Of a stretch of 64,000 bases of DNA, positions 22,637-28,828 are shown piece after piece. The stretch comes from Phalacrocorax aristotelis. Lineage: Eukaryota > Chordata > Aves > Suliformes > Phalacrocoracidae. The notes under the pieces are model-generated. The model did no database searches. It saw only the letters and a program-made list of their open reading frames with translations, and was not told the DNA's origin. The DNA lies in the NCBI RefSeq assembly GCF_949628215.1, contig NC_134280.1, positions 620,001 to 684,000 of the forward strand, read 5' to 3'. Numbering within the stretch: position 1 is the first letter of the stretch; each line of letters opens with the position of its first letter. The position numbers and the translations under genes were made by a program.

Positions 22637-22793
22637 CTCCCAGGCCACACTGCCCGCACAGGGCAGTGGATGCCAAGGACTCCATTTCAGCGTTCCTTGT
22701 GCTGGCATCATAGCCTCTTTTCAAGTACTCTGATTTTTGTTTTTTCTTCCACTGGAAAAAGAGCACAATGCTCCATCTAATCCCCCCCCGACC
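22637..22793 (-). pseudogene. UPP2: UPP2 pseudogene exon with two frameshifts
   Basis: The acceptor tttccag and donor gtgagt are intact. One frame reads LDGALCSFS; a different frame reads SEYLKRGYDASTRNAEMES, then the CGQCGLG end, matching human YLKRAFKAGVRNIEMES and CGLCGLK. The exon is about 10 bases longer than expected, from about +2 in or beside a G-run near 22782-22789 and about +8 in an A-rich stretch near 22741-22755. The substrate-binding EMES motif survives. Confidence 0.9.
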
Positions 22794-24393
22794 CTGGAAA
22801 GAAGCAGAGAAGTGTCACTGCTGGCCCTGTGCGGGTTTACAGTCATGGTGAGCGGGGTGTAGTTTCAAATGGGAAGTCCGGCAGTGCCTATGTTTTGTCT
22901 GAAGCCAACTAAGATTTACTTTGAATAGTTACTTAACTCACATTAACTTCCGTGTTTAAAGCCAGTCTGCTATGTCTCTGTATAGAGGAGAAAATTATAC
23001 AGGTTTTAACATTTGTAAAAACAATGAGTAGGCTCACAGGTGTTAAGCGCAGGGGGTATATTGCACTCTGCAGGTTAAGTCTCTGCAGCTGCTCTGAGGT
23101 CCATCAGCTGTGAAGGTCTACCAGGTTAAATCCAAAAAATGCCAAATTACTGTGGAGGAGCAGCATAGCAAGCTGTGCAGAATTGGAAAAGTGGGGAAGA
23201 GGAAAACCCACCTTAATCTAGATTTAATTTTTTTAAGGGGCTGCCATGGACAGCAGGCAGCTGGAGCCACTGGCGAGTGGCGGTGCCTTCTCGGGTGGCA
23301 TTGGTGCTGGCCGGGAAGCTGCGTCCCGGGGCGCTGCTGCTGCTGCTCCCTCCCACTCCGGCCGCAGCGCCGGGGCAGCGCCGCAGGCAGGACCCGATGC
23401 TGTGCGCAGTGTGTCCCGGCACGGGCACCCATCCTGGCCCTCTCTCTAACTCCACTGGTGCCTTTGGCTGTCCTGCAGCGCACCTGCGTCCACAGAGCGG
23501 ACTGTGCCTGCTGCAGCTACTCCTCTCACACGGTAGGTCAGGTCCTTTGTGCGAGCAAACTATATGTGTGGCTGTGCTAACCTGGGTGGAGCGCTTCATT
23601 TTATTGCTGTTCCTACTGCTAATCCTCTCAAATGGCTTTTTGTTTAAATAAAACATGATCTCGAGCAATACACAGATGGTCGCATTTGCAAGCAGATCCA
23701 AAGGTTTATAAATAGTCCTCAGATTATTAATTCTTCATTTATTACATTTCATCTACTCCATAATCAGCATTTAATTTTGCAGAGGAAACGGTTCCAGAGT
23801 AACCAAAGTTTGTTTATGTAAATGTCACACACTTCCTGACATTTTTCTAGTGTTTTGTAGTTCTGAAGTTACAATCTCGTTGTAGGAAACGAGTCAGTGT
23901 AACCCATCTGCTAGGCTCGCTACAGGATCGTGGACCAGGGGCTTTGCCAGGACAAGGCTGTTGGCCACCTGCTTTCGGAAGGTCTGTGACTGCACGTGGC
24001 TCCCGTGTAACCTCTGGCCTGGGGGGCAGCAGAAGCCCCCCCGGGCACCTGCATTGTCCCAGGGAGCAGCTACTGCTGGGTGGATTTTCCCTCTTGATCC
24101 ACCGCCAGCTCCAGCAGTGCTGGTCTTGCAGGTGACGTTACAAAATGTAACTGTCAGATGCACGAGAGACCGATAGGCAGAGTAGGTCTCACCTGGCAAA
24201 GTGCTGAAATTGGTACTGTGTGTTCTGAAGGTGTACCCTGCTCTGGCCAAGCTGAACAAGCTCCAAGTGTCAGGTGGGTCAACTCCTGCAGCCCTTCTTA
24301 GGCTTTGGTAGTGTGGATGATTTTGCCTGCGTAAGAACATAAAGACCGGGCATTATGTTTGGGGGGAGGAAGGACAGCCAAAGATCATTTTAC

Positions 24394-24524
24394 CTTCGTA
24401 GAAGTCATAGGTGCACGTGGTATGGCTGATGAGCGTGGGAAGGTCAGAAACCTCCTTGCTGCAGGTTCCTCCACGAGCTCCTTGTTCCGCTCAGTGCTCT
24501 GCACCACCACGTCGGCCTCGATCC
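24394..24524 (-). pseudogene. UPP2: UPP2 pseudogene exon with deletion and frameshift
   Basis: The acceptor ttttcacag and donor gtaaaa are intact. The first frame reads GIEADVVVQSTERNKELVEE; a second frame then reads SKEVSDLPTLISHTTCTYDFYE. Against the human exon (about 210 bases as remembered) this one has 131. About 24 codons are missing between GI-E and VVVQSTE, and 7 bases are missing near 24465 where the frame changes. The missing part includes the conserved TVVITDIAVD-like strand. Confidence 0.9.
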
Positions 24525-25175
24525 CTGTGAAAACGAAGGCTCAGGCCAAGGCAGAGCTCATAACACTTGTGTGACCTGCTGCAAAACTTCAGCATGCCAG
24601 AAAAATCTCTATAGATGTACGTGTGACTGTGGGGTGGTTCTTTTTAGCGAGTAAACCAGATGTGAGAGAGTAATTGAAATTCTTGCAGTAGCACAGATGT
24701 AGGAGTAAAATGTACAGAATCAGCACACGATGAGTGATTGTGGGAACGTGCTGAGCGACAGCGTTTTAACTGCTTCTGGCTTGCAGAGATCGCGTGCCGC
24801 CACCAGCTTGTGCAGGCACGAGCAGCACCTCTGCCCCAGGTGGGGGTCCTGCCAGCACAGAGGGCTACAGGCACCAAGACAGCTTGGAGGATCATAAAGC
24901 ATGAGAGTGACTTCCAGTCAAGTGGTTTCTGTTTGAAGTGTGATACCCATTTGTTGTGAATTCAAGGCCTTTGTTCATTATGAAAACGTGCACCCTGCTA
25001 AGCCAGTTGGTAGAAGTTTGCTGGGTTTTAACCCAAAACAAAATATCATGTTGTTTGATGTTTGGGGACCTGACAAAACCCTAAAGCTCATAATTACATG
25101 ACCTATTGCTGAGAATGTGTGGGTTTTTTTTTTTAATACCCTCTTTCCCCAGAAGAAAGACCGTGGATACCTTAC

Positions 25176-27497: not shown

Positions 27498-27653
27498 ACT
27501 GGCGGAGAGCACCAGCCCAGCCCAACACATGGCGAGCTGGTCCGTTCCCACACAGGTGTCTGCGGGTCCTCCTCATCACATCAGTCCCAGCTCCTTGTGC
27601 ATGAACTGTGCAAGTGCCCTCATCCTGTTTGGGCTGCTGCCAGCACAGACAAG
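27498..27653 (-). pseudogene. UPP2: UPP2 pseudogene exon with two tandem stops
   Basis: The acceptor is ataccag; the donor after AGT is gtaaat. 52 codons here against 53 in the human exon as remembered. The frame reads LVCAGSSPNRMRALAQFMHK then ELG, then LM, two TGA codons at 27578-27573, and resumes in the same frame as GTDQLAMCWAGLVLSAS, matching human GTDRYCMYKTGPVLAIS. Similarity on both sides of the stops in one frame shows a real premature termination and not a misread intron. Confidence 0.9.
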
Positions 27654-28710
27654 CTGGTATAAAATATGAATGTCTTGGTACATTTTAGGTAACATAGGTG
27701 CCGAGATTCAGTTGTGGTGTGGCAGCGGCGGGTTGCACTGCACGCGTCTCCCCAGAGGGCACAGCGGGATGCCGCTTTCTTGCAGGCAATCAGGGCATGT
27801 CAGACCAACTGAGGGTCTCAAAAACAGGAATTAACATTAAAACCAAACTGTTGCTCCTTCAGGGTTGTGACTATGCCAGGTCCAGACAGCTGTACAGCTG
27901 CACATACTTGGGTATCAGTCCCAGGCCAAGAAAATGTAAAATAATTCAGCAAATTTAAGCTGTTAGTATTCTTACTACCAGCAAAGCAAAACCAGATGTT
28001 AGAGTAGCTCATCGTTTAATTTATTTTATCAACAGTGTTGACTGCAATTAGCGAGCACTGCTGATGACACAGAGGCTGTAAAGTCAGGGAGAAAAAGGAC
28101 AAGTTTTACTTATTAGAAGAAAAAATGCTCCCTGAACGTAGGAGGCGGACCAGTATGCGGCTGCAAGGGCAGCGCCGCTGCTCTGGCTGCCAGCAGTGCA
28201 GGGGAGCGGGAGCCTGTGCGTGGCAGTGGCTGTGCCAGGCTGCTCGAGCCCAGGGGCACCATGGCTCTTCCCCCACGCAGCTGGGGAAATGCTCTGATTT
28301 AAAATGGAAGAGGAAAGCGGTTGTGACAGGCTGGTTTTGACAGCAGGTCTCAGCCAAAAATAAGACATCCTTTTTTCCTTGTCTCTAGTAGATGATGATC
28401 AGATGCTTTGGACAAATGCTTCCTCCGTCTGTCCTCCAACATGGGGGCCAATATAAAATCAGATTTTATGGAACTTCAGGTTTTTAAAAGAATATTTTTC
28501 TATTGGTATTTCTGCCCAAAACACGGAGGCACAGACAACCTCCCTTCCCCGGGCTGCCCCGGGTGCCTTTACTGAGCAGCCAGGCCCCGTCCCCGGCGGG
28601 AGCATCGCAGCAGCGGGGCCCTGGCAAGAGGCAGCAGGGCTGCAGGGTGAGGGGCTGGAGAGCCCTGCGGGGCTGGGAGCTGCTGCCTCCCTTTTGCACC
28701 TGCTATTTAC

Positions 28711-28828
28711 CTCTGTGTCCCCAGACATTGCTGGCAGGTTTTGCGTCTTCGTTCCCAAGGCCAAGTGATACGGAACGTCCTCCTCCACAGAGTCCAAGTG
28801 CGAGTTTTTAGTGTGGACAAGCCCATCA
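28711..28828 (-). pseudogene. UPP2: UPP2 pseudogene, first recognisable exon
   Basis: The acceptor is ccccgcag and the donor gtaaat, both intact. The frame starting one base into the exon reads GLVHTKNSHLD, then EEDVPYHLALGTKTQNLPAM and SGDTE. The human counterpart has VHVKNPYLD and YHLDLGTKTHNLPAMFGDVK. No stop lies within the exon. It sits upstream of the other four with the expected phase 0 junction to the next exon. Confidence 0.9.

Follow-up and report, generated by a model that had tools for sequence, protein, structure and literature searches.

Five stretches of UPP2-like coding sequence lie on the minus strand of the window (the whole 64,000-nucleotide stretch of DNA analyzed here), and the question raised by the locus is whether this bird has lost the uridine phosphorylase UPP2 or whether the remains have another origin, such as a duplicate, a retrotransposed transcript or an assembly error. 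The window corresponds to C5:620001-684000 of the assembly (G000, 1,278,995,914 bases in 352 contigs), begins 0.62 Mb into a 71.7 Mb contig and is without any N. The main query is human UPP2, with residues 23-317 identical to PDB code 2xrf; this entry and PDB code 3p0e are both taken to be human UPP2. With this query tblastn gives five collinear matches in the window, all on the minus strand with E values from 5.9e-16 to 6.9e-8, which cover human residues 25-60 (28818-28711), 52-113 (27692-27498), 114-152 (25290-25174), 199-223 (24463-24389) and 220-269 (22799-22641). A frameshift- and intron-aware alignment scores 594 on the minus strand of 21500-29500 compared with 91 on the plus strand, and 30 dinucleotide shuffles run through the same alignment give a mean of 91 (sd 11.7) and a maximum of 132. 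The UPP2 match in this interval is far above chance, and the five collinear UPP2-like exons with introns described in the first-pass annotation are recovered by both methods. Small pieces placed by the aligner between about 25170 and 25033, at 24539-24525 and at 22394-22344 fall outside the exon set and are taken as chance.

The edges of the five relic exons, termed A to E, are set by homology to the UPP1 gene of the same bird, in which the corresponding exons are 118, 159, 115, 210 and 147 nt long. No internal gaps are needed to align human UPP2, human UPP1, the UPP1 of PDB code 3ku4 and the bird UPP1, and the bird UPP1 exon lengths are therefore those expected of a functional UPP2. Exon A (28711-28828, minus strand, human residues about 22-60) has 118 nt as in UPP1, is stop-free and keeps both splice sites. 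Exon B (27498-27653, minus strand, residues 61-113) has 156 nt compared with 159 nt in UPP1, and exon C (25176-25290, minus strand, residues 114-151) has the same 115 nt as UPP1 and an open frame. Exon D (24394-24524, minus strand, residues 152-221) has 131 nt compared with 210 nt, and exon E (22637-22793, minus strand, residues 222-270) has 157 nt compared with 147 nt. GT donors are present at five of five and AG acceptors at four of five of these edges, so that nine of the ten splice sites are kept, in agreement with the mostly intact splicing signals claimed earlier. All four introns from exon A to exon E are retained with the same boundaries as in UPP1, which rules out a processed (retro) pseudogene derived from a spliced transcript; no point in favor of such an origin is found, the relic moreover lies in its original place between CCDC148 and ACVR1 (see below), and the probability of this reading is negligible.

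The interval 22637-28828 given in the first-pass annotation is exact for exons A-E but misses a probable last exon. This weakly supported exon F is placed at 22108-22211 on the minus strand, with about residues 290-316 recognizable. An acceptor-like sequence precedes 22211 on the minus strand, and the residues PQRLTAAFIRKHWGPC at 22155-22108 match UPP2 in tblastn with an E value, taken alone, of 7.8. Shuffling of the 5.1 kb that separate exon E from CCDC148 attains the exon F score in 2 of 100 trials when human UPP2 is the query and in 10 of 100 when bird UPP1 is. The relic probably extends to about 22108, with its last exon also damaged.

The lesions are distributed over exons B-E. In exon B two in-frame TGA codons stand in tandem at 27578-27573; the pair perhaps originated from small indels and is counted as a single lesion. 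The acceptor of exon C is AA instead of AG. Exon D has a net shortage of 79 nt with respect to UPP1, which is read as a large internal deletion together with a smaller frameshifting gap before the CSKE motif. Exon E has a surplus of 10 nt, divided by hand count into +2 in a G run at the QGR motif and +8 before YLKR, each of which is frameshifting. At least five independent disabling lesions had been claimed, and with exon D counted once the total in exons B-E is five. The relic exons joined unaltered give three stops, and the open frame of a functional uridine phosphorylase is absent.

The relic is closer to UPP2 than to UPP1, and tblastn scores are higher with human UPP2 than with UPP1 for all five exons. 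Over 209 aligned columns the relic is identical to human UPP2 at 138 and to the three UPP1 proteins (human, bird and 3ku4, the last presumably bovine) at 108-113, although the relic rows are placed in register with human UPP2 and closeness to it is thereby somewhat favored, a bias of which the tblastn scores are free. These columns exclude the DEED piece in exon B, the opening portions of exons D and F, the QGR stretch and the segment preceding YLKR in exon E, and any column with a gap in one or more rows. In the unrooted tree of the relic and these four reference proteins the split uniting the relic with human UPP2 has an ultrafast bootstrap of 100, with a branch length of 0.43 for the relic compared with 0.087 for human UPP2. 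There are 25 sites at which the three UPP1 proteins agree and human UPP2 differs; the relic follows UPP2 at 13 of them, UPP1 at 4 and neither protein at 8.

The same alignment points to a loss of constraint. The relic retains 91 of the 128 residues in which the four functional proteins agree, with 37 changed, and 95 of the 153 residues fixed in the three UPP1 proteins, compared with 128 of these retained in human UPP2 (Fisher p 3e-5). As controls, each UPP1 when held out retains 128 of the residues common to the other three proteins (sets of 132, 134 and 135), and on the same three sets the relic retains 93, 94 and 97. The counterparts of Tyr35, His36 and Arg64 are retained in the relic. In the phosphate pocket GTDR is changed to GTDQ and IIRIG to IVHIG, giving R100Q in exon B and R144H in exon C (human UPP2 numbering), which by hand count correspond to UPP1 R94 and R138, and Arg138 is taken to be the other pocket arginine of UPP1. 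In human UPP1, Arg94 is reported to be a phosphate contact and Arg64 of the three pocket arginines to be bent away, leaving two for phosphate (PMC2664818).

Any one of the lesions could be an assembly error or a polymorphism, and one frameshift falls in the G run, where errors are common. For all of them together this is unlikely because several kinds of lesion occur along with many substitutions. An assembly or sequencing artifact over a working gene would have to produce the 79-nt deficit, the lost acceptor, the tandem stops and the 37 of 128 changed residues including two phosphate-pocket arginines, whereas the four exons of the adjoining CCDC148 align gap-free, three being stop-free and one reading into a stop within its final codons, at the point where the next exon takes over. 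The chance that the damage is artifactual is extremely small.

The surroundings of the relic are those expected of UPP2. CCDC148 lies on the plus strand at 6126-17501, with four exons found at 6126-6251, 12601-12729, 15280-15426 and 17355-17501; a TAG directly follows 17501, and the gene is arranged tail to tail with the relic. On the other side plus-strand exons of ACVR1 are found at about C5:709.5-741.6 kb, some 61 to 93 kb past the relic, with no ACVR1 match at E<=1 inside the 64-kb window. The human order is taken to be ACVR1, UPP2 and CCDC148 with the same relative strands, by which the relic occupies the orthologous place of UPP2; the position beside CCDC148 had been noted earlier as the expected one and is upheld, with ACVR1 now added on the far side. 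In base composition the 2-kb bins of the window have a GC content of 0.35-0.48 up to 22000 and of 0.47-0.68 from 22001 to 58000. A CpG island at 56001-58000 (GC 0.68, CpG observed/expected 0.99) has the highest values of the 32 bins and is perhaps a promoter.

The remaining uridine phosphorylase sequences were sought in the whole assembly. A six-frame search with human UPP2 residues 23-317 at E<=1, which scores best candidates only (here 11 of 11), gives 11 matches, six belonging to the UPP1 gene and five to the relic. Among these best-candidate matches across the 1.28 Gb assembly there is no second UPP2, and the 6.2 kb relic, used as a DNA query, has no match in the assembly other than itself. 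The UPP1 gene is located on another contig (G000:C2:90847360-90854061) and has six exons, all open, with the same exon edges as the relic. Its summed tblastn score is 490.5 bits with human UPP1 compared with 453.2 bits with human UPP2, two of the six exons scoring slightly higher with UPP2, and its product groups with the mammalian UPP1 proteins in the tree. The earlier suggestion that UPP1 is the only uridine phosphorylase left holds for this assembly, as judged from the human UPP2 search, and the effect on hepatic uridine turnover suggested with it may follow. These searches bear directly on the alternative that the relic is a decaying copy of UPP2 or UPP1 and that the genuine UPP2 lies undamaged at another locus, a possibility that the first-pass annotation had marked for checking. 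GC-rich bird genes sometimes go unassembled, and an intact UPP2 could lie in sequence missing from the assembly, but besides UPP1 no UPP2-like match at E<=1 and no second DNA copy is found, and the relic has the original flanking genes on both sides; a duplicate is very unlikely.

A genome search with PF01048 gives eight matches in three places, neither UPP1 nor the relic being among them; it is no test of UPP2, and the human UPP2 search was used in its place. From their translations the PF01048 matches on C36 are presumably MTAP and those on C8 and C34 two PNP genes, and the two PNP-like loci are separate (G000:C8:22557553-22562562 and G000:C34:140329-146016, C34 being 231 kb). In this genome three alpha-like globin genes form a cluster and four beta-like ones a group. 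The three joined exons of the alpha-A globin gene (G000:C10:26606800-26607483) score 306.5 bits against PDB code 3wr1, equal to the self-score of the query, which is lowered by each of three single random changes. Six two-domain hemoglobin constructs, in which both domains count, rank above 3wr1, and the next single alpha chain scores 278.7 bits. The encoded alpha-A globin is very probably identical to the 3wr1 chain, which we take to be from great cormorant hemoglobin, and the source of the assembly is therefore probably a cormorant (Suliformes, Aequornithes).

The relic stands alone in the assembly besides the intact UPP1, it has its original neighbors and it is disrupted by lesions, and for these reasons we regard it, with a probability of about 0.95, as the original UPP2 gene of this bird, inactivated and decaying in place as a unitary pseudogene, as the first-pass annotation had proposed. 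In comparison with human UPP2 (PDB codes 2xrf and 3p0e) the relic is collinear, has the same neighbors by the human order and matches better than it does UPP1; the human gene is intact, whereas the relic has lost its frames, one splice site and two phosphate-pocket arginines. A reading frame entering the relic would end at the tandem stops in the second recognized exon, the next exon would be without a splice acceptor, and the later exons would be of the wrong length and out of frame. Because of this combination no functional protein would be possible, and we infer from the DNA that no enzyme is made from the relic, leaving UPP1 presumably to carry all remaining uridine phosphorolysis.

The remains could still be transcribed and have a role other than that of an enzyme, for example as a noncoding RNA, with which the nine of ten kept splice sites are consistent, as is exon C with its open frame and good conservation (31 of 39 residues identical with human UPP2 in the spliced alignment). 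However, exon C is also the best conserved exon between bird UPP1 and human UPP2 (80.9%), so its preservation calls for no separate explanation, and a retained noncoding role is highly improbable.

The decay of the pseudogene is seen in substitutions as well as indels, and for this reason the loss is likely to be old; a rough estimate suggests some tens of millions of years, and relatives of this bird therefore probably share it. Dating with assumed substitution rates gives 11 to 130 million years across the assumptions tried, a range that makes a very recent loss improbable but fixes the age no further. The loss is of an ordinary kind, and such losses are common. In chicken liver UPP2 is reported to change strongly, going up with fasting and down with refeeding by qRT-PCR and on a platform taken to be an array (PMC6995218). 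Two further chicken studies, a liver array study (PMC3609855) and a hepatocyte RNA-seq study (PMC4227886), likewise list UPP2. In the liver of the white-throated sparrow UPP2 and UPP1 are both listed as changed with migratory state under a zebra finch-based annotation, and the discussion describes both uridine phosphorylases as greatly upregulated in migration (PMC6465361). Because UPP2 transcripts are reported in chicken and sparrow liver, the loss is not common to all birds as far as these transcripts show.

No report of UPP2 loss in birds is found by title among the matches listed in the literature searched, a scope that leaves most subscription papers outside. Other lineage-specific losses in birds are found among the matches listed, and these include the reported loss of ghrelin in true passerines (PMC11919490) and of WDR93 and CFAP46 in some bird lineages (PMC10445033), which are likewise losses confined to certain lineages but concern other genes and pathways.

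In human cells and mice uridine cleaved by UPP1 or UPP2 is reported to supply ribose to glycolysis. A tentative scenario, against which the odds are somewhat weighted, is that UPP2 was lost long ago in the ancestor of a water bird clade comprising the cormorants and perhaps other Suliformes as well. These birds eat fish, a diet rich in RNA that is taken in meals separated by fasts, and in such a clade a liver enzyme responsive to fasting and migration may have become dispensable and UPP1 alone would set uridine turnover. A bird without UPP2 would be a natural knock-out for asking whether UPP1 is sufficient for uridine turnover in the liver, and the loss poses the question of whether it tracks diet or fasting habits.
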